Positions 16,151 to 40,727 of a DNA stretch of 64,000 bases are shown here, piece by piece (position 1 is the stretch's first letter; the number at the start of each line of letters is the position of its first letter). The DNA lies in the NCBI RefSeq assembly GCF_003627965.1, contig NZ_RBWE01000001.1:938524-1002523 (forward strand). The letters are read 5' to 3'. A model generated the notes under the pieces. The model saw only the letters and a list, made by a program, of their open reading frames with translations. It searched no databases and was not told the DNA's origin. The position numbers and the translations under genes are program-made. This DNA is from Desulfofundulus salinus (GTDB taxonomy: Bacteria > Bacillota > Desulfotomaculia > Desulfotomaculales > Desulfovirgulaceae).

Positions 16151-16663
16151 GTGTCTGGTGATCAGAATATATGGGGTCACGAGGGAGAATATCCCTGCAC
16201 GCCTCCGGACCCCCCCCCGGGAGAGCCCAATACAACCCCTCAGCGGGAACCCGGTAACCCCGGGTCTACCCCAACACCCCACCGGGTACAGGGGCGTACT
16301 AAAGAAAGCATGGAATCCATCAAAGAGCTGGGAGCCAGTCCCGTGCCCGAAGTTAAAAGCAACATTCACTGTTTAACTATTGTCGGCCAAATTGAAGGCC
16401 ACCTGGTGTTGCCCCCCCAGAACAAGACCACCAAGTATGAACACCTCATTCCGCAGTTGGTTGCCCTGGAGCAGAGCCCGGAGGTGGAAGGGGTGCTGGT
16501 AGTCTTAAACACGGTAGGGGGAGATGTGGAAGCCGGCCTGGCTATTGCAGAAATGATTGCCAGCCTCTCCAAACCCACGGTATCCATCGTACTGGGCGGG
16601 GGACACAGCATCGGAGTGCCGATAGTACCCATGTCGCTACCCCAAATTTTAACCCGTTTTTGA
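16151..16663 (+). pseudogene. tepA: Truncated tepA (ClpP-like membrane-associated peptidase)
   Basis: The first 150-160 residues match TepA/YmfB, a ClpP-fold protein linked to translocation or sporulation: a Pro-rich N-terminus, then [29 protein letters not shown]-type sequence, [20 protein letters not shown] and the [11 protein letters not shown] block. Directly after GVPI the sequence departs from the family and stops eleven residues later, so the second half of the fold is missing. Family members are about 230-250 aa. The expected next genes (ylzJ, ftsK/spoIIIE) are absent. I infer that accessory DNA inserted here or replaced the rest. The remainder of tepA is not in the window. Confidence 0.85.
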
Positions 16664-16815
16664 AAGAGACGGAAGATGTTTTTAGCTTTTTTTTACGAGC
16701 AAACGCCCCATGGGAGATAGCTGCAACTGGTTGACCAGGTGGCGGCGCAATCTTTAGCAGCGCTATAAGTGTTCCGGCTTGTTGAGACAATATCCTGTCA
16801 GCGTGAGCGATGACG

Positions 16816-16845
16816 AGCGGTGGGCCGAAAGCCACCGCTTTTTTA
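16816..16845 (+). terminator. Terminator upstream of the restriction cassette
   Basis: AGCGGTGG and CCACCGCT pair around an 8-nt loop and run into a T tract, 18 bases before the methyltransferase start. It insulates the cassette from upstream transcription or acts as an attenuator. Confidence 0.75.
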
Positions 16846-16862
16846 TTGGGAGGTGACGTATT

Positions 16863-18299
16863 GTGAAAGAAACGATTCCATTGATGTCTGCCCGGAATAA
16901 TGGAGCTTTTCCAGGCCGGGGGAAATTGGTTGAAGTAACGGGGCGTTCAGACACTGATCATTTCGGACCCCATTTAAAAAAATGTGTTAACTTCACAACT
17001 TTTAAAAGGAAAAACTTGCTTGACGGAGAAATCTCTCATTTTGAGTATCAAAAGGTTTATGTCCATCAAACCCTTGATTTTTCACTTTCGTTTGACATGC
17101 GTTCCAAGAATGAGGATGTGGTCGGGTACGGGGGTGTTACATTGAAAATACTGGCCGGTGGAAAACCCCCATTGACTTTTGAAGAAGAATTTACCGCGGT
17201 GGATCTTTATTGCGGTTGCGGGGGGGTGACCGAGGGACTGAAGCAATCCGGTTTCCGCGTCGTTGCCGCAGTGGACAATGACCCGGTTGCGTGTAAAACC
17301 TATAGGAAAAACCATCCCGAGGTCAACCTGTATGAAAGCGACATAGAAAATGTCGACCCAATGATCATAAGAAGGGAAGACTTGAAAGGTTGTGACGTGG
17401 ACCTGTTGGTGGTATGCGCCCCGTGTCAACCATTCAGCAGCTTGAATAGAAACAAGGGGAGGGATGGGAGGGCCGACTTGATTCTTCAGACGGTTAGGTT
17501 CGCCCGGGTTCTTCGTCCCGCGGTCATATTTTTGGAGAATGTCCCCGGGTTGACGCGTTACGATGAAATTATCAGCAAATTGAAAGAAGAATTGAGGGAA
17601 TTGGGCTATCGCGTTGGAGGTCCCCACAAAATCAACGCGGCGGATTACATGGTTCCCCAAAGACGAACCAGATGCATTTTAATGGTTACAAGACTGATTG
17701 ATCCTCCGCAACCGCCGCCGCCGCTCACCCCGGAGGGTTCGAGGATTACCGTGAGAGCGACAATAGGAAAGTTGCGTCCCCTTAAGTCGGGGGAGAAAGA
17801 TCCGTGCGATCCCCTCCACGCCGCACGAAAACACAATGAACTCACGATTAAAAGATTGTCTCATATTCCGAAAGACGGAGGAAGCAGAAGCTCCCTGCCG
17901 TCCGAACTTCAGCTGAAGTGTCACAAGGGCCATGACGGACATCCGGACGTCTACGGCAGGATGGCATGGGACTCGTTAGCCCCGACTTTGACGACGGGTT
18001 GCACGGATGTAACCAAGGGACGGTTCGCCCATCCCGAGCAGGACAGGGCCATCACCTTGAGGGAGGCGGCCCTGCTTCAGACGTTTCCGAAGACTTACGA
18101 GTTCGCGGGGGGACCCACCGCCATAGCAAGGCAGATAGGAAACGCCGTTCCGGTTGAAATGGTCAAGGCGTTGGCTCCGACTTTTAAAAAGAGCATAAGG
18201 GAGATCAGGGAGAGGGAGAAAAGTGAGGTATACCGAGAAGCAGTTGGAGGCTATCAATCACAGAGGGGGCAATCTCCTGATCCTGGCCTGCGCGGGTAG
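16863..18299 (+). CDS. C5-cytosine DNA methyltransferase with N-terminal extension
   Basis: This 478 aa enzyme should transfer a methyl group from SAM to cytosine C5. Motif I (VDLYCGCGGVTEGL) starts at about residue 113, the catalytic PCQ cysteine is Cys188 (CAPCQPFSS), ENVPGL, QRRTRCI and IGNAVP provide motifs VI, VIII and X. About 110 residues precede motif I, more than in minimal enzymes, and may form an added domain; the variable target-recognition region lies between about 280 and 390. The GTG start follows GGGAGGTGA. It overlaps the helicase gene by 77 bases, so translation is coupled. It is the modification arm of the cassette. Confidence 0.92.
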   Translation: MKETIPLMSARNNGAFPGRGKLVEVTGRSDTDHFGPHLKKCVNFTTFKRKNLLDGEISHFEYQKVYVHQTLDFSLSFDMRSKNEDVVGYGGVTLKILAGGKPPLTFEEEFTAVDLYCGCGGVTEGLKQSGFRVVAAVDNDPVACKTYRKNHPEVNLYESDIENVDPMIIRREDLKGCDVDLLVVCAPCQPFSSLNRNKGRDGRADLILQTVRFARVLRPAVIFLENVPGLTRYDEIISKLKEELRELGYRVGGPHKINAADYMVPQRRTRCILMVTRLIDPPQPPPPLTPEGSRITVRATIGKLRPLKSGEKDPCDPLHAARKHNELTIKRLSHIPKDGGSRSSLPSELQLKCHKGHDGHPDVYGRMAWDSLAPTLTTGCTDVTKGRFAHPEQDRAITLREAALLQTFPKTYEFAGGPTAIARQIGNAVPVEMVKALAPTFKKSIREIREREKSEVYREAVGGYQSQRGQSPDPGLRG

Positions 18300-21186
18300 C
18301 GGCAAAACCGAAGTCATTGCCAGAAGGATCGCCATGCTCGTGAGCGAGGGGGTGCCTCGGGATTCGATCGTGGCCTTCACCTTCACGGAAAGGGCCGCCG
18401 GTGAGTTGAAGGCCCGCATCAGAAGGCATCTCGACGAGCTTCGCCGTGAAGGACGGCTGGACGATGCCGCTTTGGGATCGATGTACGTGGGCACCATTCA
18501 TAGTTTCTGTTTGCAACTATTGAAAGAGATGGACCCCCGATACCGTAATTTCGAAATTTTGGATGATGTAAAGCAGGTCGCCTTTATAGTGTCCAATTAC
18601 CTCGATTACGGAGGACGCGGTTTGGGTTTGGAACGCCTGGAAAACGGAAGGAGCAGAATAGAGACGGTGGAGGCGTTCTTGAACACCCTCAACAGGATGT
18701 ACATCGAAAATATACCCGTGGCTTCCGTTCGAAACCCGGTTTTAAGGGATGTCTTGATCCGGTATCACAACTTGACCAGAAGCAGGCCCAACTACTTTTT
18801 GGATTTCGATTCCATCATCGCGGAAACCTTGGAGTTCCTCCACTCCAATCCTTCCGTCAGGAAGGAGGTGCAGGAAAAATTCCGGCACATCGTTGTCGAC
18901 GAATACCAGGACGTGGACCCGCGACAGGAGGAACTGATCCGGTTGCTTTCCACGGACGGAACCGGTGCCGAAGTATGTGTAGTGGGCGACGACGACCAGT
19001 CGATATACGCCTGGAGGGGGGCCGACATATCAAACATTCTAACATTTGAGGAACGCTATCCCCGCGTCAAAAAAATAGAACTGACGGACAACTTTCGTTC
19101 CACCCACTGTATTGTGGAGATTGCAAATCGCGCGGTAAGGGGTGATTCCAGACGCGGCCATGCGGTACGGGGGCTTTCAAGGCGTCTCGACAAGGATATG
19201 CGCGCCCGTAAATACGATCCGGAGTCGGATCGGTTCGTGGAAACAATGGCCGAACTCGGCGACGTGCACAGACTGGTTTTCGGATCCGAGGAAGAGGAGG
19301 CGTCGTTCATAGCCGCGGAGATAGAGAGACTCCGCGGGTTGCAAATCGAGGACAGGGACGGCGTCAGGGGATTGGACTACGGTGACATCGCGGTTCTATA
19401 CAGGAGTGTAAAAAACGGTGTCCGCACATTGATGCGGGAGTTGGACGCCAAGGGCATACCATATGTGGTGCGCGGGACCACGGGACTGTTCGATCACTCG
19501 GAAGTCCGCCTGTTCCAAGCAGCTTTTTGTTTTCTGGCGAGGATGAGATGCAGCTTCAGAGATTCCGAAACCGGCGAAGTAACAAACTTGAACGAAGCAG
19601 ATATCAGAGATTTTATCAGAAAAACCGTTGAAGAAATGCGGGACAGGGGAATCATGCCCCACGCCAACCCCGCTATTTTCCTGGAGTGGCTGGCGTCGAA
19701 GAGACGCGAGCTCGGATTGAGTGCTCTTCCCAGAGGACGCAGACCCCGGGGGGTCGGACGACGCATCTATCCCCAGGATTTGTTCCAGGAAATGCTTGAA
19801 ATACTGGGGGCCAACAGAGGACCGGAACCGTGGCCCGACAATGTATTGTATAATTTGGGCAGGTTCAGCGATCTGATTACGAGGTTTGAATCGGTGCACC
19901 AGTGGGTGACGCCGCAGGACTTGTGGGATCTCAACTATTTTTTGGGGACCTGGGCCTCCAGGAAGTCGGAGGAGGGGGGGCTGGACGACCCCAGTCTTCA
20001 AAATGCGGTTCAGATCATGACCGTTCACCAATCGAAGGGGTTGGAATGGCCGGTGGTGTTTTTGCCGGGGCTGACAAGCCGGCGTTTTCCCTCACAGAAG
20101 CGCTATTCAGGTCAGGAAGTCCTGTTGGAGGATGACGAATATATCGGAAGGAGAAGCCTGGGAAAAAATGACCCCGATCGTATTTTGAGGGACGACGAGG
20201 AGAGAAGACTTTGGTATGTGGCGGTGACCAGGTGCAGGAAATTCCTTTATTTGACCTGCTTTACCAGAAGAGGTACGGGGCCCTCGCCTTACTTCGCGGA
20301 AATAGAACACGACTATGTTCTCGATGAGAACACCGATCCTTCCTCGCCCCGTCCTCGTACGGTACCGCGCCGTCCCGCGAATACCGAACTGCTCCCCACG
20401 ACCTACAGCGACCTCAACTATTACTGGGCCTGCCCCTACGATTACAAACTGCGCAGGCTGATGGGGTTCAGTCCGGGCGTCAGGGAGGATTACGGTTACG
20501 GCCAGCAGATACACAATCTGCTGGCGTTGATACACGAAAGGGCGAAAAAGGGCGGGGTCGACGAGGAATGGGTCAAGGAAGAGGTGGGAAGGAGATTCAA
20601 TCTGAGGTACACCACGGGAGATCCCTTTGAAAAAATGAAAAACGCGGCCGAGAGAACTTTGGTCAGGTATGTAACAGAATTCCCCGACATTGAACATTAT
20701 GTTTTCGAAGCGGAAAAACCATTCGAGTTCATCATGGGGGACGCCATGATAAGCGGTACCATAGATTTGCTCAACCGTGTGGAAAACGTGGATCAAAACG
20801 AAGAAAGTTCCAGAACACCCGTTGAAGTGGTCGATTTCAAGACCAAGAGGAACGGTGACGATCTCCCGTTGGAGGACAGACTGAAAGACGCTTCAATGCA
20901 GGTTGTCCTTTATGCCATAGCCGCTGAGGAGTCGCTGGGTTACGATGCAAGGGAGGGGTCGGTCCACTTCCTTTACGCCGACAGGCCCCAGGACAGGGTG
21001 TCGGTGGATATTTCCGAAACGGCCCGGAACAAGGTGCGGGAAGCCGTGGCAAATGCGGTAAACGGCATCAAGGAGGGGCGGTTTCCGAGAACCGGGATTG
21101 AAACAGGCCGGTGCAAGGAATGTGATTATAAAAGTTTGTGTCCCGGTTCGGCGGCTTGCGGGAAGAACGAGGGCGAGAAAGGGTAA
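18223..21186 (+). CDS. UvrD/Rep-type SF1 helicase fused to a Cas4/AddB-like nuclease
   Basis: The 987 aa protein opens with an SF1A helicase: Walker A ACAGSGKTEV (about residue 24), motif II VVDEYQDVD (Asp226-Glu227), GDDDQSIYAWRG, the TDNFRS motif, VHQSKGLEWPVVF and YVAVTRCRK. The last 250 residues carry a PD-(D/E)XK nuclease, with Asp848 in GTIDLL and Asp871-Phe-Lys873 in VVDFKT. Four cysteines suit an iron-sulfur staple: Cys737 and the C-x2-C-x5-C group 964/967/973. The layout resembles AddA/AddB-like recombination nucleases, but the gene belongs to a restriction-type operon. GTG start after GGGAGAGGGAG. Frequent AGA/AGG arginine codons differ from the host block. Confidence 0.93.
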   Translation: MRYTEKQLEAINHRGGNLLILACAGSGKTEVIARRIAMLVSEGVPRDSIVAFTFTERAAGELKARIRRHLDELRREGRLDDAALGSMYVGTIHSFCLQLLKEMDPRYRNFEILDDVKQVAFIVSNYLDYGGRGLGLERLENGRSRIETVEAFLNTLNRMYIENIPVASVRNPVLRDVLIRYHNLTRSRPNYFLDFDSIIAETLEFLHSNPSVRKEVQEKFRHIVVDEYQDVDPRQEELIRLLSTDGTGAEVCVVGDDDQSIYAWRGADISNILTFEERYPRVKKIELTDNFRSTHCIVEIANRAVRGDSRRGHAVRGLSRRLDKDMRARKYDPESDRFVETMAELGDVHRLVFGSEEEEASFIAAEIERLRGLQIEDRDGVRGLDYGDIAVLYRSVKNGVRTLMRELDAKGIPYVVRGTTGLFDHSEVRLFQAAFCFLARMRCSFRDSETGEVTNLNEADIRDFIRKTVEEMRDRGIMPHANPAIFLEWLASKRRELGLSALPRGRRPRGVGRRIYPQDLFQEMLEILGANRGPEPWPDNVLYNLGRFSDLITRFESVHQWVTPQDLWDLNYFLGTWASRKSEEGGLDDPSLQNAVQIMTVHQSKGLEWPVVFLPGLTSRRFPSQKRYSGQEVLLEDDEYIGRRSLGKNDPDRILRDDEERRLWYVAVTRCRKFLYLTCFTRRGTGPSPYFAEIEHDYVLDENTDPSSPRPRTVPRRPANTELLPTTYSDLNYYWACPYDYKLRRLMGFSPGVREDYGYGQQIHNLLALIHERAKKGGVDEEWVKEEVGRRFNLRYTTGDPFEKMKNAAERTLVRYVTEFPDIEHYVFEAEKPFEFIMGDAMISGTIDLLNRVENVDQNEESSRTPVEVVDFKTKRNGDDLPLEDRLKDASMQVVLYAIAAEESLGYDAREGSVHFLYADRPQDRVSVDISETARNKVREAVANAVNGIKEGRFPRTGIETGRCKECDYKSLCPGSAACGKNEGEKG

Positions 21187-21266
21187 AAAGTGTAGTGTCG
21201 TGTTCGCGGGGACATGCAACCGTGAGCGATTTGCAGGCGAGTGCCGGTATAGGGGTGGCGGTTTTA

Positions 21267-21806
21267 ATGGTGGACGTGTTCGATCGGGCAAAGAGATCGG
21301 AAGTGATGTCCAAGGTCAAATCCAAGGATACAAAGCCGGAAATGACCTTGAGGAAGGCATTGTACAAGGCCGGTCTCCGGGGATACAGGGTCAAAACCAA
21401 ATTGCCGGGGTCCCCCGATATCGTTTTCACCCGGGTGAAGGTGGCCGTTTTCGTGGACGGTTGCTTCTGGCACGGTTGTCCGGAGTGCTATTCGGAGCCG
21501 GGGACCAATGTAACGTTTTGGCGAAAAAAATTGGCCGAGAACCGGGAGAGGGATGCCAGGGTGAACAAAATGCTGGCGGATATGGGTTGGAAAGTGCTTC
21601 GTCTTTGGGAACATCAAATAGAGAAGGATTTGAACGGTTGCATAGATGCGATCAAAGCGTCGATTTCCGGGGACGGGCATGTCCCCTCCGAGTACAACGC
21701 CGGTTCGAGTGGGGAAAACGCCAAGTCATTGACCAAAACGGGGCGACAAGGCCGGCGGACGGTGTTGTCGGTCGAACCGTCGAGCGGGGGTGATTTTGGT
21801 GGATGA
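21267..21806 (+). CDS. vsr: Vsr-type DNA mismatch/restriction endonuclease
   Basis: Classical Vsr nicks beside T:G mismatches made by deamination of methylcytosine. Here RAKRSEVMSKVKSKDTKPE, GSPDIVF and VFVDGCFWHGCPEC reproduce the family motifs, including the catalytic aspartate and the Cys/His zinc site. The frame is open upstream to 21138, but the family start is MVDVFDRAKRSEVMS, at ATG 21267. About 40 low-complexity residues trail the conserved core. It could protect against mutation by the neighbouring methyltransferase, or be a restriction nuclease, as Vsr-like proteins often are in operons with GHKL ATPases. It overlaps the next gene by a few bases. Confidence 0.9.
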   Translation: MVDVFDRAKRSEVMSKVKSKDTKPEMTLRKALYKAGLRGYRVKTKLPGSPDIVFTRVKVAVFVDGCFWHGCPECYSEPGTNVTFWRKKLAENRERDARVNKMLADMGWKVLRLWEHQIEKDLNGCIDAIKASISGDGHVPSEYNAGSSGENAKSLTKTGRQGRRTVLSVEPSSGGDFGG

Positions 21807-23676
21807 CAGGTTGGTTATGCAGGTGCAGATGACTGTGATAGATCATTTGGGAATACAGCTTTATTCCCATTTGGCTCCGGTTATCTGTGAACTGATCGCC
21901 AACAGTTGGGATGCCGACGCCAACAACGTATGGGTATCCGTTCCCGAAGTTGCGGTGGACGAGAGTTCCGAGATCGTAATCCGGGACGACGGGGAAGGTA
22001 TGACGTTTCAAGAAATAAACGAATACTATCTGCAGATAGGTAGAAATCGTAGAAAAAATTTGGGCAAGGACAGGACAAAAGGCGGACGCAAGGTTATCGG
22101 CAGAAAGGGACTCGGGAAGCTGTCCGCGTTCGGTGTCGCCGACGAGGTCATGGTGGAAACAGTCAAAGAGGGTCGGCGGGTGGCTTTTGTTTTAAACATT
22201 CACGACATACGGCGTTCCGAGGGACTTTACGAACCTCCCGTGTTGGTTGACGAACCGACCGACGACCCCCCGGGTACCACCGTGACACTAAGAAAGCTGA
22301 AACGGAAAAGGCCCGTAGACATCGAGAGTTTGAGACGGCAGATTGCAAGGCGTTTTACAATATTGGGCCAAAGTTTCAATGTTTATCTGAACAATGTCGA
22401 AATAACCCTCGATGACCGCGGTTACAAGCTCCAGTACAAATGGGAAATAGATGAATGGGTGGATCCGGGCAAACAACGACGAATCAAGGGTTGGATAGGT
22501 ACGCTGGAGAAACCGGTGCGGGAGGATTTCGGCAAGGGAATAGTTGTAACGGCCCGGGGGAAGTTGATTCACGAGCCGACTTTTTTCGGTGCGAGCGGCG
22601 GCAAGCAGGTCGCATATTCGTATATGGTCGGTGTTTTGGAGGCGGATTACCTGGATGATGATCCGGACAAAGACCTGGTTTCCACTGACAGGTCGAGTAT
22701 TATAACGGACTCGGAGGAAGCTCAGGAACTATTCGAGTGGGCACGAAAGAAAATTGCGGAGATATCGGAGGAATGGTCCGATAAACGAGCCAGGGAGAGG
22801 GAGCAGGTTATAAAGAGTCTGGAAATAGTGGACAGCTGGTACCGGAAACTCGGAACCCACGAAAAAAGACTTGCCGACAGGGTTTTTCGCGCAATTGCGT
22901 CCGTTCCCGATCTTCCGGATGAGAAAGCGCAGGAGTTCATCGAGTACGTGATAGACTCCATAGACCACCGGGCCTTTAAAGATTTGATCGCCGATTTCAA
23001 GGGCACGGAGGACGAATTGAAACTCCTTGAGTTGTTCAGGGAATGGGAAGTGCTCGAGGCAAAGGAAATGTTGCGCGTCATGGAGGGACGTTTCGCGACC
23101 ATTGAGAAATTTGAAACCTTGGTAAGGGAAAATGCAAAGGAGGTACCCACTCTTCACAATTTTTTCAAGGAATTTCCGTGGATGCTGGACCCGCGATGGA
23201 CCGTTTGGAAGGACGAGGCCACTTATTCCAATCTGCTGAAGGAACGTTTTCCGGAAGGTGACGATGTTCCGGAGGAAAACAGGCGCATTGATTTTCTGGC
23301 CGTCGGTTTCGGGCACACCCTTAACATAATCGAACTGAAGAGACCCCGCGCAAAAGCGGGGAAGAAGGAGTTCAGCCAGGTCCAGGAATATCTGGAGTTT
23401 ATACAGACGTATGTACGTGAAGAGGGACGGTTTTCCGATGTTATCGCCTATTTGGTTTGCGGGGGGATAGTGGATAAGGCCGAAGTCAGAACCAAACGCG
23501 ACATTGCGAGAAGAGTGGGGATACATGTTTTGTTCTATTCGGAGCTTATGGACAGGGCCAAGGCATTGCACCAGGAACTGATTGAAAAGTACCAATCGTT
23601 GAAAGAGCGGAAGAAGACGGCCGAACAGGTCGGTGAGACCAGGAGTCTTGTGGCGGTGGGCAAATCCGGCGATTGA
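21799..23676 (+). CDS. GHKL (MORC/MutL-like) ATPase fused to a predicted PD-(D/E)XK nuclease
   Basis: The N-terminal third is a GHKL ATPase: ELIANSWDADA (Bergerat N-box, Glu31/Asn35), RDDGEGMT and GRKGLGKLSAFG. A transducer-like middle region and a helical segment rich in E/K/R follow. Near the C-terminus, RRIDFLAV and NIIELKRP give a D-x13-E-x-K pattern (Asp498, Glu512, Lys514), as in DUF4263/Shedu-like nucleases. No signal or membrane segment is visible. GGGGGTGA favours the GTG at 21799 over 21790. ATP-gated clamp closing coupled to DNA cutting is an inference from both domains and the operon with a methylase, Vsr and a helicase. Confidence 0.85.
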   Translation: MDDRLVMQVQMTVIDHLGIQLYSHLAPVICELIANSWDADANNVWVSVPEVAVDESSEIVIRDDGEGMTFQEINEYYLQIGRNRRKNLGKDRTKGGRKVIGRKGLGKLSAFGVADEVMVETVKEGRRVAFVLNIHDIRRSEGLYEPPVLVDEPTDDPPGTTVTLRKLKRKRPVDIESLRRQIARRFTILGQSFNVYLNNVEITLDDRGYKLQYKWEIDEWVDPGKQRRIKGWIGTLEKPVREDFGKGIVVTARGKLIHEPTFFGASGGKQVAYSYMVGVLEADYLDDDPDKDLVSTDRSSIITDSEEAQELFEWARKKIAEISEEWSDKRAREREQVIKSLEIVDSWYRKLGTHEKRLADRVFRAIASVPDLPDEKAQEFIEYVIDSIDHRAFKDLIADFKGTEDELKLLELFREWEVLEAKEMLRVMEGRFATIEKFETLVRENAKEVPTLHNFFKEFPWMLDPRWTVWKDEATYSNLLKERFPEGDDVPEENRRIDFLAVGFGHTLNIIELKRPRAKAGKKEFSQVQEYLEFIQTYVREEGRFSDVIAYLVCGGIVDKAEVRTKRDIARRVGIHVLFYSELMDRAKALHQELIEKYQSLKERKKTAEQVGETRSLVAVGKSGD

Positions 23677-23949
23677 TATTTCTTCAATAACATTGACGGC
23701 GGAGGTGCCGGGCCTGGTTACAGGTGTGATCATGGGACATTTGCAATGAGTTTGTCCCTTACAAAATTCGTTAACATCAGAAAAGAATAATTCGGGAATT
23801 ATGCCATAACCAGAGGACTTCGTTTTAAAAGCCAATCCCGCGTGACAAATCACGCGGGTTTTTTTTGTGGGCTTCCGGGAGGGAGGTTCAAAACAAAAAT
23901 GCCATGCGCTCATGCAAGCGAATGGCAAAAGAAAGGAGTTCTTAAGGCT
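23677..23949 (+). other. Gap between defence cassette and replication gene
   Basis: No gene is visible. A perfect 7-2-7 palindrome, ATAATTC-GG-GAATTAT, lies at 23787-23802. A terminator hairpin (CCCGCGTG/CACGCGGG with eight T residues) lies at 23837-23866 and shares its arms with the hairpin at 15992. This stretch may contain the junction between the two accessory segments. Confidence 0.5.
23837..23866 (+). terminator. Terminator downstream of the GHKL gene
   Basis: CCCGCGTG, a six-base loop, CACGCGGG and eight T residues. The arms are identical to those of the hairpin at 15992-16013. Confidence 0.8.
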
Positions 23950-24999
23950 ATGATAGTGGAAACCCCGGGCGTTGTCAAGCAGGAAAATGGAAATCCAAAC
24001 CGTTTTTACGAACTTTACGGCAGGACAATTGCCGAGCAGGGTGTGGCTCCCATTCCCACCGCTTTGTTCCGTTATCAGAGGGAATTGGGACTTTCCTTCC
24101 AGGAGGTGGCTTTTATCTGCCACCTTTTGAGCTACCGGTGGACCGTTAAGGATCCTTATCCCTCCATCAGGGAACTCAGCAAGTTAACCGGCGTGAGTGA
24201 AAAGACCCTGCATTCCTATAAAAAAAGCCTGGTTGAAAAGGGACTGATCATTGTCCGCAACAGGTACGATTCCAGCAACGGCCAGCTGAGCAATGAATAT
24301 GACCTGGCGCCTGTCTTTGAAAAACTGCAGCAGATTATTCAAAACGAGGGGGAAGAAACCCCTGATTCCGGACAGGGGTGTGTAAAAAATACAGACCCCC
24401 CTCTTACCCGGGTGGATCATGCCGGGGGGTGTGAAAAAATTTCATACCCCCCACTTTCCGAATTTCAGAGGGGGGTCTGTAAAAATTTCACCCCCCCTCT
24501 TACCATGGGTTCAGACGAATTAAATAATAATTTTGTTGTTGTTGATGTTGATGTTGATCGTGACATCGTTGATTACCAAAAACCGGGAGAGAATATGCCC
24601 GCAGACAACCGCGGCGAAACGCCGGACGAACCTGTAACGAGCGCCCATCCCTGCCTTAACACCGCTGTTTTGGGGGAGTTGCAGGCGGCGGTGCTGGTGG
24701 CCACCGGCGCCCGGGTGCCTTCAGAGTTCCTGGAGGAACTCCTGCTGGAATTTCCAAAAGAAAAGATCAGGGAAAAAATCAAACTTATCAGTGAAATGGG
24801 CAGCGGTACGGAAATCAGGAACGTCCCCGGCCTGCTGGTTGCCGCTCTCAGGGAGGATTACAGGCACGAACCCGGGCGGCCGCAGGGCCGGGTCGAGAAG
24901 AATAAATCAAAAACAAAGAAAGCGGAAAGTAAAACGGATTCTGAGGAACACGAGAAGCTGAAAAAACGGGAATTGCTGAAATCCCTTTATCTCTCTTGA
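23950..24999 (+). CDS. Replication initiator-like protein with N-terminal winged helix
   Basis: The protein (about 349 aa) begins with a winged-helix region (LGLSFQEVAFICHLLSYRW, then SIRELSKLTGVSEKTLHSYK) typical of plasmid and phage initiators and DnaD-like replisome organisers. The centre (about residues 140-185) has a repeated peptide of the form C-x-K-x-x-x-PPL, encoded by three DNA palindromes. The C-terminus is helical and strongly Lys/Glu-rich. AAAGGAG supports ATG 23950 rather than the earlier ATG 23842. Its place beside recA and a repressor suggests it starts replication of the element. The layout resembles lambda O, with origin sequences inside the initiator gene. Confidence 0.75.
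   Translation: MIVETPGVVKQENGNPNRFYELYGRTIAEQGVAPIPTALFRYQRELGLSFQEVAFICHLLSYRWTVKDPYPSIRELSKLTGVSEKTLHSYKKSLVEKGLIIVRNRYDSSNGQLSNEYDLAPVFEKLQQIIQNEGEETPDSGQGCVKNTDPPLTRVDHAGGCEKISYPPLSEFQRGVCKNFTPPLTMGSDELNNNFVVVDVDVDRDIVDYQKPGENMPADNRGETPDEPVTSAHPCLNTAVLGELQAAVLVATGARVPSEFLEELLLEFPKEKIREKIKLISEMGSGTEIRNVPGLLVAALREDYRHEPGRPQGRVEKNKSKTKKAESKTDSEEHEKLKKRELLKSLYLS
24374..24580. repeat. Three iteron-like palindromes plus AT-rich tract: candidate origin
   Basis: Three related palindromes lie inside the initiator gene at 24374-24402, 24424-24452 and 24467-24500. Each has G-rich and C-rich arms (GGGGTNTG... / ...CA/G-ACCCC) around an A/T core, with centres 45-50 bp apart. The next 60 bp (about 24518-24580) are AT-rich and carry GTT/GAT triplet repeats. 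Iterons followed by an AT-rich unwinding region within an initiator gene is the lambda ori layout, so this is my candidate origin. Confidence 0.6.
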
Positions 25000-31659: not shown

Positions 31660-32763
31660 CTAGGGTACAAGGTTACTCTGGAGAAGAAAGAGGATGAGAC
31701 TGCGGCTTAGGGTAAAGTAGATTTTCGAAGGAGGGTTGTACTTTTTCAAAAGGTGCAAAGCAGGTCGCACATGTCGTTGAAGGTAAGGGGTTTCGATGAT
31801 AACGAATTCCTCTACCTTCTCGATGGATAACTTGCTGTTCCTAAACGTTTCATGGAGTAGAGAAGCAAGAGTTCGATGGTGAATCTCATCTCCATCAAAT
31901 ATGGATAATTGGCCAGTGTATTTAAGGTTCTCGTAAGCCGAAAAGCAAAAGTAACCGCTTTGATCTACCTTCCACATAGCATTTTTCATTTCTTTTAATC
32001 CTTCGATGCGATTTGTAGCAAAAAAGAGAAAATATTTTGTTCGGTTATTTTTATCCCGAATTTCAAGAGAACGTACGAATCGAGCACCGGCAATTTCTTT
32101 TAATTGGCGGAGATAAAGGTTGGTCAAGAAATCCCTTCGTTTTTCAGACTCATTTATGGAGAGGGCTTTTTTCCATTCATCAGTGTCGAACAAGAGATTA
32201 GTCTTAGGTTCGTGTGTTTCACACCATCTGTTAACGGCGTCATACATGAAGTTAAACAAAACTTCACAGCTCTGGTATTGGAGAATTTTAGCTATTAACT
32301 CTAAAGGTACGCCGGAAATTCCAAATGGATCAATAAAGACAAATGACGGTGCCAGTCTTTTCCCTTGCTTTTTTAGCTCGGAAAGAACTTGTTCCATGAC
32401 ATTTTCAAAGGAAGTGGGAATCACTTCGTAAAAGATTCTCTTCCTCTTCAATGCTGCACTGGGGAATCTTTCCTGGCATAAACTTTTTAGGAATGTAGCT
32501 CTTTCTTTATCGCTTTCAATAAAAAACATTCTGATTTCGGCCTTAAAATTGCGTTGAAGGGAATGTTCGGAGGCTATCCGGAGTGCAATTAATGGAGAAC
32601 CTTCTTCACCAGTACTGTATAGCCCAGGTCCGGCAAAGCCATCGATATATAGTATCCTGGAAAAAGATTGTCCCAGGATCGGAAACCATGCTTTAAGATA
32701 TTCCCGAAGCACAGTATGTTTCGCTCTTGAGTGTTCCTTAAGAGGCCAAATAATATTTTTCAT
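31660..32763 (-). CDS. tcmP: Three-Cys-motif partner protein (TcmP-like)
   Basis: The 367 aa protein has the TcmP hallmarks: an N-terminal basic KNIIWPLKEHSRAKHTVLREYL, a Rossmann-like motif RILYIDGFAGPGLY and the acidic FVFIDPFG motif, with VLFNFMYD after it. TcmP proteins look like SAM-dependent methyltransferases and usually sit beside a DUF5131 (Gp37/Gp68-like) three-Cys protein. No such partner is in the neighbourhood, so this copy stands alone. It is lower in GC than its surroundings, suggesting separate acquisition. It is divergent from the integrase gene. Confidence 0.8.
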   Translation of the reverse strand: MKNIIWPLKEHSRAKHTVLREYLKAWFPILGQSFSRILYIDGFAGPGLYSTGEEGSPLIALRIASEHSLQRNFKAEIRMFFIESDKERATFLKSLCQERFPSAALKRKRIFYEVIPTSFENVMEQVLSELKKQGKRLAPSFVFIDPFGISGVPLELIAKILQYQSCEVLFNFMYDAVNRWCETHEPKTNLLFDTDEWKKALSINESEKRRDFLTNLYLRQLKEIAGARFVRSLEIRDKNNRTKYFLFFATNRIEGLKEMKNAMWKVDQSGYFCFSAYENLKYTGQLSIFDGDEIHHRTLASLLHETFRNSKLSIEKVEEFVIIETPYLQRHVRPALHLLKKYNPPSKIYFTLSRSLILFLLQSNLVP

Positions 32764-32878: not shown

Positions 32879-33733
32879 TTGGGGCTGGATGGGTTCGTTG
32901 AGTACTTGAAGAACCGGAATTGTTCTTCAAAAACCATAACAGCATATACAGGGGCCCTGCGCTGCTTTATGAAATGGCTGGAGGATACGACCGGTTCTCC
33001 ATTCGACCCGGCTTCCGTTACGCCGCTGGACGTGGCCGACTATCGCCGGTACCTGCTGAACGGGAACCGCAGGCCGGCCACAGTGAACCTTCACCTGGAT
33101 GCCCTGTCGTCCTTTTTTTCGTGGGCTGCGTCCAGCGGCGTGGTCCCTTCCGACCCGACGGAAGATATCAGGAGGGTGCCGGAGCAGCGCGGGGCTCCCA
33201 GGTGGCTCACGAGGCAGGAGTTAGGGGCGCTGGTGAGGGCCGTGCAGAAGTACGGCATTCCCAGGGACCGGGCACTGCTGGCGATTCTGCTTCATACCGG
33301 CCTGCGGGTCTCCGAGGCGGTATCACTGCATGTTGAGGACCTGGTGATCCGGGAACGTTCAGGCTGGGTGACGGTCCGTGAGGGCAAGGGTGAAAAACGC
33401 AGGGAAGTGCCGTTGAACGTCACGGCCCGGAGAATAATCCAGGAGTGGCTTACCGTCCATCCCGGCGGCGACTGGCTCTTTCCCGGGCGAAAGGGACACA
33501 TGACTGCCCGGGCTGCCGAAAAGATCCTGGAGAAGTACGCCCGGCTGGCGGGGGTGGAGGTTACGCCTCACCAGTTGAGGCACACCTTCTGCAAGATGTT
33601 GGTGGACGCGGGGGAGAGCCTGGACCGGGTGGCGGTTTTAGCGGGTCATTCTAATTTGAACACGACAGCGCGGTACACCAGGCCCGGAGTGCAGGACCTG
33701 GAGAAGGCCGTGGAGAAACTGAGCTGGGAGTAG
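32879..33733 (+). CDS. Tyrosine recombinase (XerC/D-like integrase)
   Basis: A complete 284 aa integrase: SAM-like core-binding domain (about 1-85), then a catalytic domain with Arg in HTGLRVSEAV, His-x-x-Arg in HQLRHTFCKM, His in AGHSNLNTT and nucleophile Tyr in ARYTRPG. The TTG start follows AAGGGGGAAC. It could integrate the element or resolve its dimers. No flanking attachment repeat was found, and its internal position in the element suggests resolution is as likely as integration. Confidence 0.92.
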   Translation: MGLDGFVEYLKNRNCSSKTITAYTGALRCFMKWLEDTTGSPFDPASVTPLDVADYRRYLLNGNRRPATVNLHLDALSSFFSWAASSGVVPSDPTEDIRRVPEQRGAPRWLTRQELGALVRAVQKYGIPRDRALLAILLHTGLRVSEAVSLHVEDLVIRERSGWVTVREGKGEKRREVPLNVTARRIIQEWLTVHPGGDWLFPGRKGHMTARAAEKILEKYARLAGVEVTPHQLRHTFCKMLVDAGESLDRVAVLAGHSNLNTTARYTRPGVQDLEKAVEKLSWE

Positions 33734-33880
33734 GGGGCGCGTGTCCCCTATTTTTTATGGAAGCTGCCGTTTTCGGGAGGGGCGGCGGGGCGGTTTGACC
33801 TCCCGGTTTTGCGGCCCGCGGAAACGCGGGCTTTTGTTGTTGATTATTATCTTGTAAAGCCACCGGAGAGGGTTGCCTTA

Positions 33881-34351
33881 ATGCTGAATGAAGGGATGTT
33901 TTCTTCGCGAACCGGGGAATGGGAAACTCCGCAAACCTTCTTTGAGGCGCTGAATGCCGAATTTCGTTTCACCCTGGATGTTTGCGCCCGTCCGGAAAAC
34001 GCCAAATGTCTGCGATATTTCACGCCCGAACAGAACGGCCTTTTGCAACCATGGGCACCGGAAACCTGTTGGATGAACCCGCCCTATGGCCGCGAAATCG
34101 GGCGTTGGGTAGAAAAGGCGTACAACGAAGCCCGGAGAGGCGCTGTCGTAGTGGCCTTGCTTCCGGCCCGGACGGACACGCGGTGGTGGCACCGGTACGT
34201 CATGCGGGCTGCGGAGATCAGGTTCGTTAAAGGCCGGTTAAAATTCGGTGGTGCGGAGAACAGCGCACCATTTCCATCGGCGGTGGTGGTGTTTACTCCG
34301 GGGAAAACAGCGTCGGATGGGCCGGTTGTGAGAACCATGCGGGTGAAATAG
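33881..34351 (+). CDS. Phage-type N6-adenine DNA methyltransferase (Dam)
   Basis: The protein (about 156 aa) matches the short phage Dam family: WETPQTFFEALNAEFRFTLD, CWMNPPYGREIGRWV with the catalytic NPPY motif, and VALLPARTDTRWWH. Phages and plasmids use such orphan methylases to mask restriction sites. The frame is open from 33809, but ATG 33881 fits the family start and has GAGAGGG upstream. A small gene follows after one base. Confidence 0.88.
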   Translation: MLNEGMFSSRTGEWETPQTFFEALNAEFRFTLDVCARPENAKCLRYFTPEQNGLLQPWAPETCWMNPPYGREIGRWVEKAYNEARRGAVVVALLPARTDTRWWHRYVMRAAEIRFVKGRLKFGGAENSAPFPSAVVVFTPGKTASDGPVVRTMRVK

Positions 34352-34352
34352 T

Positions 34353-34511
34353 GTGGCGCTCAACGCGGTAGAAGAAGCGCTGAATAAAATTAAGCAGGCC
34401 GGGGACGATGTTGATAAGCTTTACACGGTGGCTGACATGCTCGACCGGGCCATGCACCGGGTGAGATGCGCGATAAACGGGCTTTGGCTTCCTAAGAAGA
34501 AGGTGGGGTAA
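34353..34511 (+). CDS. Small hypothetical protein after dam
   Basis: A GTG-initiated frame of 52 codons (VALNAVEEALNKIKQAGDDV...) starts one base after the dam stop. The amphipathic helical N-terminus and good codon use suggest a real gene. The close spacing implies translational coupling with dam. No family recognised. Confidence 0.5.
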   Translation: MALNAVEEALNKIKQAGDDVDKLYTVADMLDRAMHRVRCAINGLWLPKKKVG

Positions 34512-34804
34512 ATGCTCTGGCGTACGCGCTTCCTAGTCGGATTTTGTGCGGTTTGCTGGCCTGGTGGGCCGGATAGGGATTTCGCTGGCCCGTTCGCGAC
34601 GGATAACCGGGGCCTGAAGCCCCGGCCCGGATGGACGGCGGGCCGGCTTCCCCCAAAAATTCCTCCCCTTTCCTTTCGCCCGGCTCAGTGCCGGGCTTTT
34701 TTGTACAACCCGGGCGCGGCTGGAAAATCTCCCGGGGAGGAAGGAGGGGACGTTTTCTGTACCCCGTGTCCGGCTGCGCTACAAACAGAAAGGAGCTGTT
34801 TTTT
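34512..34804 (+). other. Gap with terminator before the transfer operon
   Basis: A frame open here runs through the terminator at 34678-34702 and is not a credible gene. TTTTCTGTA (about 34752) and TACAAACAGAAA (about 34783) can pair just upstream of the next ribosome site, so the leader of the transfer operon may be structured. Confidence 0.5.
34678..34702 (+). terminator. Terminator upstream of transfer genes
   Basis: GCCCGGC-TCAGT-GCCGGGC followed by six T residues. Confidence 0.85.
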
Positions 34805-35044
34805 GTGAAAAACCCCGGACTTGCGGCGGTGCTGAGTTTTTTGATCTGCGGCCTGGGTCAAATCTACAACGGCCAGGTCGGCAAGGGCATTGCGCTTTTC
34901 GTAGCGGCAGGTATTTCCGGCCTGCTCTGCGCGGTGGTAATCGGATTCATTCTGCTACCGGTCGTCTGGCTGTACGGCATCTACGATGCCTACAGGACGG
35001 CTGAGAAAGTTAACAAGGGGGCTGGTGAAAATGTTGCCGGGTAA
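34805..35044 (+). CDS. TM2-domain membrane protein
   Basis: A 79 aa protein with two transmembrane helices and the TM2-domain pattern: KNPGLAAVLSFLICGLGQIYNGQ, then VVWLYGIYDAYRTAEKVN. TM2 proteins have no assigned enzymatic role. AAAGGAG places the start at GTG 34805. The 3' end overlaps the next gene by 14 bases, so it begins the transfer operon. Confidence 0.85.
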   Translation: MKNPGLAAVLSFLICGLGQIYNGQVGKGIALFVAAGISGLLCAVVIGFILLPVVWLYGIYDAYRTAEKVNKGAGENVAG

Positions 35045-35414
35045 AGCCGGAATCACCCTTCTGCTGGTTGCCATGCTGTTTGTCCTGGCAACACCCGCGA
35101 TCGCGGACGACCAGCAGGTTCCGGCAGCGGAGTCCGGCGGGATCCAGCCGGTGAGCCCGGACCAGTTTGCGCAGAAGGTCAACACTATGATTGACGGTGC
35201 CTACAAAGCGGCCGGTCCCGTGACTGACGCCGTGGCCAAGATCATGCTGGCCGTGGCGGGCGTAGCCGCGCTGCTGGTACTCTTCAGCGGCATGAAACTA
35301 TTTCAAAAAGTCGTCGGTGCAGTTTTGTCCATAGGTTTCGGTTTGTTGCTCTTCTATGGAGCGCCATACATCGTGGGTCTGGTCAAGGGTCTGGCCCAGT
35401 ATGTTACAAGATAG
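35031..35414 (+). CDS. Pilin-like exported membrane protein (VirB2/TrbC-like)
   Basis: About 127 aa: a signal peptide (TLLLVAMLFVLATPAIADD), an acidic loop, and two hydrophobic helices separated by a short turn (IMLAVAGVAALLVLF and VLSIGFGLLLFYGAPYIVGLV). That topology matches VirB2/TrbC-type conjugative pilins. Start ATG 35031 follows AAGGGGCTGG. A related-looking protein follows directly, so two pilin-like subunits are encoded in tandem. Confidence 0.7.
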   Translation: MLPGKAGITLLLVAMLFVLATPAIADDQQVPAAESGGIQPVSPDQFAQKVNTMIDGAYKAAGPVTDAVAKIMLAVAGVAALLVLFSGMKLFQKVVGAVLSIGFGLLLFYGAPYIVGLVKGLAQYVTR

Positions 35415-35428
35415 AGGAGGGTTGGGTT

Positions 35429-35812
35429 ATGAACTATGTGCGTCCACTGGAAGCTATAAACCGCATTCGCTCGCTGGTTACAAGGCTGGTCGGTATTCCT
35501 GTTTTTCTGGGCTCCTGGCTGGCCGCTACTGAAGCCTGGGCCGCCGGGGGTATAGTTGAGCGTACGGCTGAAGATGTGGCTACAAAGCTGGTTAATATCT
35601 TCAAAGAAATTCTCATGCCGATTGGTGCCTTCGTTATTTTCATTGCTGTTGCATGGACTGCTTTCCTTATCATCACCACGGCAAACAGGCCCGAGAAACG
35701 GGCCGAAGCAATGGGATCCCTGCCCTACATACTGGGCGGCGGCGTCCTCCTTGGTGGATCTATGCTGGTGGCGGGTTTTATCGTCGGCCTTATGGCCAAA
35801 GCCGGGCAGTAG
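35429..35812 (+). CDS. Second pilin-like membrane protein (VirB2/TrbC-like)
   Basis: 127 aa with a cleavable-looking N-terminus ending in ATEAWAAGG, then two long hydrophobic helices (IGAFVIFIAVAWTAFLIITT and GGGVLLGGSMLVAGFIVGLM) around a basic loop. The topology is that of VirB2/TrbC pilins, and the following PrgI-like and VirB4 genes support this. The ATG follows GGAGGGTTGGG. Confidence 0.75.
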   Translation: MNYVRPLEAINRIRSLVTRLVGIPVFLGSWLAATEAWAAGGIVERTAEDVATKLVNIFKEILMPIGAFVIFIAVAWTAFLIITTANRPEKRAEAMGSLPYILGGGVLLGGSMLVAGFIVGLMAKAGQ

Positions 35813-35824
35813 AGGGTGGTGTTC

Positions 35825-36121
35825 ATGCGGCGTTACCCCGTGCCCGTACAGATAACCGAGCCGGAACGGATCTTTGGTGGCCTGCTAAGCTTCAAGCAGT
35901 TCGTGTACATCGTGGCCGGAGCCTCATTAGGGGGCATGGCGGGGGCGGCAGCGGTATTCTTTCCCGTCCCCGTACGCTTCGCACTCTTTGGATTGGGCTG
36001 TGCGGCGGGTATGGCTATAGCTTTCGTAAAGCTGTATCACACTCCCATGGACGTATTCCTGTGGCACTGGTTCTGCTGGAAACGGAGCGGGAGGGCGTTT
36101 TACCTTAAGGGGGATGAGTAG
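35825..36121 (+). CDS. PrgI/VirB3-like conjugation membrane protein
   Basis: A 98 aa protein with RRYPVPVQITEPERIFGGLLSFKQF at the start and two membrane helices, the hallmark of PrgI-family proteins, which take the place of VirB3 in Gram-positive type IV secretion systems. It overlaps the next gene by eight bases. ATG 35825 is preferred over GTG 35816 because it retains the GAGGGTGG site. Confidence 0.85.
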   Translation: MRRYPVPVQITEPERIFGGLLSFKQFVYIVAGASLGGMAGAAAVFFPVPVRFALFGLGCAAGMAIAFVKLYHTPMDVFLWHWFCWKRSGRAFYLKGDE

Positions 36122-36878
36122 AGTGGGAGCCTGGTTTACCGCGACCTTCCTGGTACTTTCGGCTGCCGTGGGCATGCTGGCCTGGTTCTATGCGCGGCCC
36201 CGCCGTACAACGGAGTCCCGCGCCGGGGCCGGGCGACCCGCCTCCCCGGGCCCCCGCCGGGCATCAAGTGGCCTGAAAGATTTCTGGGAGGTTAAGGACG
36301 TCCGGCGAAGCCTCCTGATCCTGACCGGGGATCGCTACCGCATGGTGTGCCGTATTACAGCGGCGGACTACTGGCTTCTATCCGAGAACGAGCAGAATAA
36401 CGTCGAGGACGCCCTGCGGGGCGCGCTGCGGCAGCTGAACTATCCGGTGCAGTTCCTGGTTACCTCGGAGGCGGTGGACACCAGGGCCGCCGTGGAGGAA
36501 CTGCGTGAGATGGCTCCAAGCCTGCCGGGTACACTGGCGGACATGGCCCTGGCCCGTGCCAACTGGTTAACCGGCTTGATGCAGGAGCGTGCGGTATCGG
36601 CCCGGCGGGCCTACGTAGTGCTCTCCTATAACACCGTGAAGGGCTTCGACCATGCTCTGGAAGAATTACAGGCCAGGGCAAATACCCTTGCGGTGGCCCT
36701 GGCGGGAGCGAAGATACGCCTGGAGCCGCTTTCTTCCGAGGCCCTTGTGGACCTGCTGGCGCACCTGTTGAACAGAGGACGCGCCTGGCGGCCTTCGGAG
36801 GCGGTTAAAGCCGGGGTATTGTGCCTGTATCACGTGGGCGAAAGGGATGTGTATGAGGATGCGGTTCCTGCAGCGTAG
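36114..36878 (+). CDS. Conjugal transfer protein resembling the VirB4/TraC N-terminal domain
   Basis: 254 aa: one N-terminal membrane helix, a Pro/Arg-rich linker and a soluble domain (SLLILTGDRYRMVCRITAADYWL, EQNNVEDALRGALRQLNYPVQFLV) similar in pattern to the N-terminal domain of TraC/VirB4 ATPases but without a P-loop. It overlaps the VirB4 gene by 32 bases. I infer a membrane platform subunit that works with the ATPase. Confidence 0.7.
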   Translation: MSRVGAWFTATFLVLSAAVGMLAWFYARPRRTTESRAGAGRPASPGPRRASSGLKDFWEVKDVRRSLLILTGDRYRMVCRITAADYWLLSENEQNNVEDALRGALRQLNYPVQFLVTSEAVDTRAAVEELREMAPSLPGTLADMALARANWLTGLMQERAVSARRAYVVLSYNTVKGFDHALEELQARANTLAVALAGAKIRLEPLSSEALVDLLAHLLNRGRAWRPSEAVKAGVLCLYHVGERDVYEDAVPAA

Positions 36879-38673
36879 GCGTAAACAAGAATCGGTGGAG
36901 AAAGATCCCCTGACCCGGCACGTCCTGCGGGTGCAGAACCTTTTCAGTCCGTCGGGGCTTATTGATGAGTTCGACTGCCTTGCTTTAGGCGACCGCTGGT
37001 GTAAAGTTTACGGCGTATTAGGGCTGCCCCGCGAAGTGACGGTGGGTTTTCTTGATGAAATCTTTTTTGCGGGGGACGTGGATCTGTCCATCCACCTGGA
37101 GCCCGTGCCGGACGGGGAAGTATTGAAAAACCTGACCCGCCGCGAGACACAGGCCAGGGCGCAGTACGACCTGGATCGCAAGGCGGGGAGCATTTACCGC
37201 CTGCCGGAACTGGAGGCCCAGATCCGGGACTACCGCAGCCTCCGGGAGGCCGTGCAGTTCGGCCAGGACAGGCTATTTCACGGCACACTGTTCATAGCCG
37301 TCCATGGCCATACCAAAGATGAGCTCCGCAGGCGCTGCGACCTGGTGGAATCGGTGCTGGCCCGGCGCGGCGTGCTGGCCCACCCCCTGGTGTTGCGGCA
37401 GGCGGCGGGGCTGAAGAGCGTTCTGCCCTTTGCTTCCAACCGGGTGGAAGACTTCGCCAGGAACATGACCACCGGCGTGGGGGCCTGCTGCCTCCCCGTA
37501 ACGGCTTCCGGGAGCGGCCACACGAAAGGCATAATGCTGGGGTTCAACTATTTCACCGGGTCCCCCGTCCTGCTCGACCGGTTTGCCGGGGAAAAAATTA
37601 TCCCCAACCAGCACCTGTTCATTTCCGGCGAGTCCGGTTCGGGCAAGTCCGTATCGAAACGGCACATCGCCCTCCTGGAAGGCTACCGGGGGGTAAGGAC
37701 GGCCTTTGTGGACCCGGAAAACGAGTACATTCGCTTCACGGAGGCTTTGGGCGGCCCGGTGGTGCGCTTGAAACCCGGTGTGTTTTCCGGAATGAACCCC
37801 CTGGAGCTGGAGCCGGAACAACAGGAAGACGGAACCTGGCGGGTGAATGTACTGGATAAAGTTGCCGACGTGCGAGGTCTTGTAGGGGCCGTTTTCCGGT
37901 ACTTTTCCGGGGACGGCCTCACGGCGCGGGAGGCGGCCCTGCTGGAAGAAGCCGTGCTGGAGGAATACCGGGCGAGGGGCGTAACGCACGACCCGGGAAG
38001 CCTTTACGAAGGCGGCATAAAAAAGCCCATGCCCACCCTTTCGGATATACAGAAACGCCTGGCGGCCAAGCCCGGCGGGGAAAGGGTGGCGGACGGCATG
38101 AAACCGCTTCTTTCCGGCGGTTCCCTGGGGATGTTCGACGGCCAGACCACCTTGACCCTTAAGGAAGCGCCATATATATGTTTTGCCCTCAAGGGTCTGG
38201 GCGACGACCTGGCGCGCTTCGTGGGCGTATACGCCGTGCTTTCCTGGCTCTGGCAGATGTTCGCCCAGCGGGGCGGCAGGGAGGTGCCCAAGTGCGTGGC
38301 CGTGGATGAAGCCTGGATGTTTCTCAGACACCCCGACGCGGCGCTTTACCTGGAAACCCTGGCCCGGAGGGGCCGCAAGCACGGTTGCGCCCTGACCATC
38401 GCCACCCAGCGGTTTGAAGAATTCGCCTCCAGGGAGGCGGGCCGGGCGGTGATCGAGTCCTGCGCGACAATTCTGGTGTTGAGGCAGGAGGAGCATGCGG
38501 TCAAAGCTGTCATAGAATACTTCCACCTCTCCGAAGGGTGCCGCAAGATTCTCTCGGGGGAACATGCCCGGCCCGGCCTGGGCATCCTGCGGGTTTCCGG
38601 GCAGACCTTTGCCGTGCAGGTTACGCCCGCACCGTTCGAGTGGGAATACGTTGAAACGAAGGTGGGGGGATAG
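36847..38673 (+). CDS. virB4: VirB4-family type IV secretion ATPase
   Basis: VirB4 powers pilus assembly and DNA transfer. The 608 aa protein has the VirB4 N-terminal domain and a C-terminal RecA-like ATPase with Walker A GESGSGKSVSK (about residue 261), Walker B KCVAVDEAWMFL (Asp487-Glu488) and the ATQRFEEF motif. Possible starts are ATG 36847, 36853 and 36859. It overlaps the gene before and is followed after one base by a small membrane protein. Its presence is the best evidence that this is a conjugative element. Confidence 0.95.
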   Translation: MCMRMRFLQRRRKQESVEKDPLTRHVLRVQNLFSPSGLIDEFDCLALGDRWCKVYGVLGLPREVTVGFLDEIFFAGDVDLSIHLEPVPDGEVLKNLTRRETQARAQYDLDRKAGSIYRLPELEAQIRDYRSLREAVQFGQDRLFHGTLFIAVHGHTKDELRRRCDLVESVLARRGVLAHPLVLRQAAGLKSVLPFASNRVEDFARNMTTGVGACCLPVTASGSGHTKGIMLGFNYFTGSPVLLDRFAGEKIIPNQHLFISGESGSGKSVSKRHIALLEGYRGVRTAFVDPENEYIRFTEALGGPVVRLKPGVFSGMNPLELEPEQQEDGTWRVNVLDKVADVRGLVGAVFRYFSGDGLTAREAALLEEAVLEEYRARGVTHDPGSLYEGGIKKPMPTLSDIQKRLAAKPGGERVADGMKPLLSGGSLGMFDGQTTLTLKEAPYICFALKGLGDDLARFVGVYAVLSWLWQMFAQRGGREVPKCVAVDEAWMFLRHPDAALYLETLARRGRKHGCALTIATQRFEEFASREAGRAVIESCATILVLRQEEHAVKAVIEYFHLSEGCRKILSGEHARPGLGILRVSGQTFAVQVTPAPFEWEYVETKVGG

Positions 38674-38674
38674 C

Positions 38675-38872
38675 ATGCAAGACGACCACGAATACAACCC
38701 GGTGACCCCGTTGTTGCCCATGTTCCTGGGTTTGTTTATTGGCCTGGCCGTCACCGTAGTGTCCTATGTGGTCTGGCTCGTTTGGTGCATCTGGCGTGCG
38801 AAGAAGCTGAACCGCCAACCCACCGGGTTCCCGGAGGCAATCAAAGCCCGCATGAGGAAGTGGGGGCCATGA
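38675..38872 (+). CDS. Small single-helix membrane protein in the transfer operon
   Basis: 65 aa with one transmembrane helix (FLGLFIGLAVTVVSYVVWLVW) and a basic cytoplasmic tail. The start follows GGTGGGGGGA, just after the virB4 stop, and the gene overlaps the next one by four bases (ATGA). No family recognised; probably an accessory subunit. Confidence 0.75.
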   Translation: MQDDHEYNPVTPLLPMFLGLFIGLAVTVVSYVVWLVWCIWRAKKLNRQPTGFPEAIKARMRKWGP

Positions 38873-40671: not shown

Positions 40672-40680
40672 TGATTACTG

Positions 40681-40706
40681 CGGGTACCGGAAAGGTGCCC
40701 GTTTTT
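40681..40706 (+). terminator. Terminator after the VirB6-like gene
   Basis: CGGGTACC / GGTGCCCG stem with a GGAAA loop, followed by TTTTTGTTTTTT. Confidence 0.8.
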
Positions 40707-40727
40707 GTTTTTTGAGGTGATTAAACT

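Follow-up and report, generated by a model that had tools for sequence, protein, structure and literature searches.

The analysed window is a stretch of 64,000 nucleotides of the Desulfofundulus salinus genome (contig NZ_RBWE01000001.1, positions 938,524 to 1,002,523). Positions 16863-23676 of this window hold a cassette of four intact genes on one strand, which we refer to, in their order, as M, H, V and R. The genes, the slot that they occupy and its borders are as follows.

16151..16663, + strand: TepA/ClpP-like gene, 3'-truncated, left border of the slot (homology to the intact tepA of three sister genomes stops at 16625)
16683..23822, no strand assigned: slot occupied by the cassette (borders compared with sister genome G001)
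16863..18299, + strand: M, C5-cytosine DNA methyltransferase, 478 aa (GTG start behind GGGAGG)
18223..21186, + strand: H, UvrD-type SF1 helicase with Cas4/AddB-like PD-(D/E)XK nuclease, 987 aa (PF00580, PF13361, PF12705, PF01930)
21267..21806, + strand: V, Vsr mismatch (T:G) nicking endonuclease, 179 aa (PF03852, 7.4e-28; TIGR00632)
21790..23676, + strand: R, GHKL ATPase (MORC-like module) with C-terminal PD-(D/E)XK nuclease, 628 aa (NF050001; HATPase_c_3, 1e-22)
23842..24999, + strand: DnaD_N-like gene, right border of the slot (PF21984, 1.3e-11; 92% DNA identity to G001)

M and H overlap by 77 bases and V and R by 17 bases, and the gap between H and the likely start of V is at most 80 bases. 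The open frame of V covers 21138-21806, with the Vsr domain beginning only at the ATG at 21267. The initial annotation had described four overlapping or near-abutting genes forming one operon, and its coordinates, overlaps and tight packing were correct. By motif inspection, the catalytic motifs are intact in all four proteins. M matched PF00145 (2.4e-58) and TIGR00675 (3e-45), contains the motifs DLYCGCGG, PCQPFS, ENV, QRR and GNAV, and is 64-66% identical to the M proteins of Moorella stamsii (L039) and a cyanobacterium (L174). Its catalytic core is preceded by about 108 additional N-terminal residues (16863-17186), which the M. stamsii methylase lacks. V matched TIGR00632 above the cut-off (1.3e-39) and retains the active-site motif VDGCFWHGC, which places it in the Vsr family. 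When the cassette was compared with the PADLOC profiles, as the annotation had proposed, generic parts were recognized (MTase_II, a GajB-like helicase motor, Vsr and REase_II), and no named whole defence system matched the four-gene set.

R matched NF050001, the NCBI model of the BbrUII/HgiDII restriction enzymes, from residue 9 to 606 of 628 (1e-115; model positions 2-650 of 659). Its score of 387.7 bits is under the curated equivalog cut-off of 550, so the match assures neither activity nor site. Judged by sequence, R is a relative of this family and not a certified equivalog. All 25 aligned relatives of R matched the same model. In a structure model of R (mean pLDDT 81), residues 11-336 superposed on the MORC3/MORC2 ATPase module with Z scores of 23-25 (MORC3, 25). 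Towards the C-terminus, R499, D501 and E515 are invariant in the 25 relatives and K517 is found in most (RRIDFL...IELKR motif). Pfam gave no name for this nuclease end, and NucS was matched by three R relatives. When the C-terminal domain was searched on its own, Foldseek returned nothing at E 1e-3 (the best E value was 0.017); the evidence for its fold is therefore the sequence motif, the predicted secondary structure and the similarity to NucS. A genome-contig scan using R alone found no relatives.

Iyer, Abhiman and Aravind (2008; PMC2292703) assigned paraMORCs to restriction-modification (RM) operons that also encode DNA methylases and Vsr. In their paraMORC3 group, GHKL and S5 are joined to a C-terminal RE-fold nuclease with E-D-ExK, and the RM operons include Dcm and Vsr. 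R has this architecture (GHKL and S5, then the RE-fold nuclease with D501...E515-x-K517). The partners named in that study are superfamily II helicases, whereas the helicase of the cassette belongs to superfamily I. VcSduA, a GHKL and PD-(D/E)XK protein of Vibrio cholerae, requires both active sites for phage restriction (PMC12137116). This type I-D Shedu protein resembles R in its GHKL ATPase, its C-terminal PD-(D/E)XK nuclease and the putative role of R in phage restriction, but it was described as acting alone, outside any methylase operon (PMC12137116). R gave no Pfam DUF4263 match at 1e-3 and a sub-threshold SduA match (E 0.067), and an assignment to Shedu was rejected.

H contains the domains UvrD-helicase (5e-61), UvrD_C (9e-36), PDDEXK_1 (6e-23) and Cas4 (9e-7), and its best PDB matches were PcrA and UvrD. 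Four cysteines (C737, C964, C967 and C973) and the nuclease residues are invariant in eight relatives. The cysteines are of the iron-sulphur AddB/Cas4 type, and H would accordingly be predicted to hold an iron-sulphur cluster. A UvrD-like motor and a RecB-family nuclease of the iron-sulphur type are also found in AddAB and AdnAB; unlike these, H is a single chain and is linked to methylase genes. The housekeeping role does not fall to H, because the host genome encodes a separate AddB, and among six genomes of the genus H was detected in the host only. Two named systems were considered and rejected. GajB models of Gabija cover only the helicase motor of H, and the cassette has no GajA (OLD-like nuclease). 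MzaB of MZA scored far under its cut-off (E 9.5e-4), and the cassette has no Z1 or AIPR gene.

The main text of Hudaiberdiev et al. (2017; PMC5704561) reports UvrD-Cas4 fusions, whose helicase domains form a monophyletic clade in the published tree, both at type III RM (Mod/Res) loci and beside Dcm and Vsr genes, and proposes an ancillary defence role for them. As in the loci presented there, H carries a UvrD helicase and a pfam12705 nuclease in one chain and has a Dcm neighbour, with Vsr at several loci; the type III context was recovered among H relatives too. Since that text describes both the helicase and the Dcm/Vsr context, these are prior art. It is silent on a GHKL enzyme in the same operon and on HNH, MspI and MvaI/BcnI partners. 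Our literature search found no earlier description of R and H in one operon. The domain calls of the initial annotation (C5 methylase, UvrD helicase with Cas4/AddB-like nuclease, Vsr, and GHKL with PD-(D/E)XK) were confirmed by the Pfam and NCBIfam matches and by the conservation of R499, D501 and E515. Its statement that the combination was not a recognized one held for R and H in one operon and failed for the parts, which are known already (BbrUII/HgiDII as paraMORC3, and UvrD-Cas4 with Dcm and Vsr in the main text of PMC5704561).

We compared 87 R loci, comprising the window, six plasmid loci and 80 loci on viral contigs, some of them near-duplicates. A C5 methylase was present at 83 of the 87, and it lay within 3 kb in 82 of the 86 others; in the window, M is farther from R because H intervenes. 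Vsr was found near 18 of the 87. H was absent from 86 of these loci, the window being the only exception. The cassette thus resembles BbrUII/HgiDII loci in the full-length match of R and the C5 methylase partner, with Vsr at about one-fifth of the loci examined, and differs from them in having H between M and R (0 of the 86 others).

For H, about 19 independent full-length loci were obtained. A C5 methylase lay no more than about 4 kb away in 12 of them and type III genes were present in four; the remaining three had neither or were truncated by the end of a contig. RM genes adjoined H at 15 of about 18 independent loci other than the window. The restriction enzymes that partner H are of five types (type III, MspI, MvaI/BcnI, HNH and GHKL). 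One locus (L064) has the order M, H, V and HNH nuclease, as tightly packed as in the window, and because the order is repeated there, an M-H-V group with a nuclease in fourth place is more than chance. The fourth gene is of the MspI type in Priestia and of the MvaI/BcnI type in Vibrio and at L066. Four loci (L174, L065, L067 and L264) have M and H without a recognizable R. At L066:8734-11823, the UvrD-Cas4 protein has an N-terminal helix-turn-helix fusion and lies beside MvaI/BcnI-family nuclease genes; this copy is nearly identical to one on a Vibrio cyclitrophicus plasmid (L171). In genome G375 (L264:2328-11013), genes for Vsr, a C5 methylase and UvrD-Cas4 follow one another, and their MotA- and OmpA-like neighbours suggest a Zorya system.

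R, M and H also occur inside 12 kb, with no Vsr, in the Bacillota genome G241 (L263). This RM island (L263:4678-16546) contains a GHKL R, HerA, an HhH-GPD glycosylase, a C5 methylase, HNH genes and UvrD-Cas4. A 673-aa ORF at L263 has no Pfam match, and the glycosylase bears the EndoIII iron-sulphur motif; as a guess, it may stand in for Vsr in putative T:G repair. Among 397 other Bacillota genomes, R was found in six, H in three and both in two, compared with 0.05 expected (p 6e-4, uncorrected for defence-rich genomes, which could be behind part of the co-occurrence). Recurrence of the four-gene order, on which the annotation had made its reading depend, was therefore partial: M-H-V with a nuclease recurs in L064 and R, M and H recur in L263, but the genes do not travel as one unit, given the many R loci without H.

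The overlapping M-H pair was found from Bacillota to cyanobacteria. The divergence of M was correlated with that of H (Mantel r 0.85 for 11 loci and 0.71 for the seven closest; permutation p ≤0.001). In the triad of the window, M. stamsii and the cyanobacterium, M is 61-66% and H 53-58% identical, and R is present only in the window. The cyanobacterial M and H overlap by four bases, with no V or R alongside. The M-H pair of M. stamsii is close to V but not linked to an R, and no convincing R was found in that genome. In the methylase tree, the M proteins of the window and M. stamsii are sisters (100/100) inside a clade in which R-partnered and H-partnered methylases are mixed, so that a single methylase lineage has partners of both types. 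These comparisons indicate a modular build, with M-H as a stable pair and a cutter that is exchanged from one cassette to another.

Both borders of the slot are common to the sister genome G001, where the interval is about 4.5 kb. The G001 slot (L055:6310-10527) contains a HerA-like ATPase, Druantia DruA (2e-84) and a 383-aa ORF; the latter appears NurA-like by eye and had no Pfam or PADLOC match. The tepA frame is 283-297 aa in G002, G004 and G005 and about 180 aa in the host, G001 and G008. Neither the window nor the next ~39 kb contained the 3' part of tepA, and without it the inserted element could not be bounded on its right side. Conjugation-type genes lie downstream of the cassette. The site is a defence slot within or beside a mobile element.

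A tyrosine integrase, a phage-type Dam methylase, a TraG/VirB4-like ATPase and an M23/SLT wall hydrolase are encoded at 32879-42431 of the window, which is probably an integrative conjugative element. The product of 31660-32763 (- strand) is 367 aa long and contains a GMT-like wHTH domain (PF22560); by eye, it is similar to TcmP (three-Cys-motif partner) proteins, which occur in defence islands. A second Dcm-type cassette, with C5 methylase, DUF4928 protein (7.7e-98) and Vsr genes in tandem, lies outside the window about 75 kb from the four-gene cassette (host contig C1, ~1036094-1038703; L176:14194-16803).

We consider it probable that the four genes are an ATP-dependent Type II RM cassette of modular build. 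This is favoured by the full-length match to NF050001, the methylase at R loci, the RM neighbours of H, the loci L064 and G241 and the contents of the G001 slot. The analysis shows the structure of the genes, their intact active sites, the recurring M-H and M-R pairs, the exchange of R and the location in a defence slot. M would mark the host chromosome by methylating a cytosine within a short site that is probably palindromic. R, with its MORC-like GHKL clamp and PD-(D/E)XK nuclease, would cut DNA without the methyl mark. The AdnB/AddB-like H would enter at ends or nicks, unwind 3' to 5' and degrade the strand, and the invader therefore could not be resealed. V would repair T:G mismatches from the deamination of methylcytosine, preserving the sites. 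We infer that R may be the first cutter, with H acting after R, and the specificity is to be read in the same conditional way. The restriction or defence role proposed in the initial annotation agrees with the position of R in or near a restriction-enzyme family, the RM genes at H loci and the other defence genes carried by the slot in the sister. Its count of three separate restriction nuclease activities was overstated, because Vsr acts as a nickase in mismatch repair.

A homologue of M.HgiDII and M.BbrUII has been discussed in a study that names GTCGAC as the site of M.HgiDII (PMC5867850). In 800 kb samples, GTCGAC was weakly depleted in the host (47 sites compared with 65.1 expected), and a sister genome without the cassette had a similar dip (63 compared with 74.6). 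GTCGAC is only a candidate for the site of the cassette.

A purely downstream role of H does not explain the M-H pairs without a recognizable R. M-H could instead be the core restriction machine, in which H as translocase and nuclease attacks DNA lacking the M mark, while R and V are optional. The overlap and co-divergence of the two genes from Bacillota to cyanobacteria and the pairs without R, that of the cyanobacterium having no V either, are consistent with this. However, H also serves type III systems, which have their own cutter, and R may be unlinked or unrecognized at the loci that appear to have none. UvrD/RecB-type enzymes require ends or single-stranded DNA for loading and are not site-specific by themselves, which disfavours an M-H machine, and we regard it as unlikely. 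We are equally tentative about the version in which the Dcm/UvrD-Cas4 pair is a minimal ATP-dependent restriction system without a site-specific endonuclease, to which a BbrUII-type enzyme was added later. If this were true, a C5 methylase would supply self/non-self discrimination to a processive helicase-nuclease.

An M-H-V group and an independent R might also have become adjacent in the defence slot by chance and act separately. The presence of H at only one of the 87 R loci, the different cargo of the G001 slot and the M-H and V genes of M. stamsii without a linked R would fit such an accretion. It is nevertheless improbable in view of the 17-base overlap of V and R within one tight run, the position of M as the sole methylase of the cassette for an R family that is usually paired with one, the presence of R, M and H in one 12-kb stretch of G241, and the joint occurrence of R and H in two of 397 Bacillota genomes against 0.05 expected. 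Finally, the four genes mirror the E. coli cast of Dcm, Vsr, UvrD and MutL (PMC2292703), and could form a self-contained very-short-patch repair cassette whose helicase and MutL-like GHKL ATPase help to repair the T:G mismatches that the methylase creates. The relation of R to a restriction-enzyme family and its MORC-like ATPase module make this less likely; moreover, both H and R carry nuclease domains, Vsr is near only 18 of the 87 R loci, and a C5 methylase is missing from the H loci with type III genes. We regard a repair cassette as very improbable.

The preferred reading, an ATP-dependent Type II RM cassette, concerns parts that are all known already, and only the combination of R and H is unrecognized. 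It joins in one operon two literatures, that on GHKL (MORC-like) restriction enzymes and that on UvrD-Cas4 helicase-nucleases. Our findings suggest that some restriction systems may bring their own RecBCD-like degrader, which would make a type II cut irreversible without the AddAB/RecBCD of the host.
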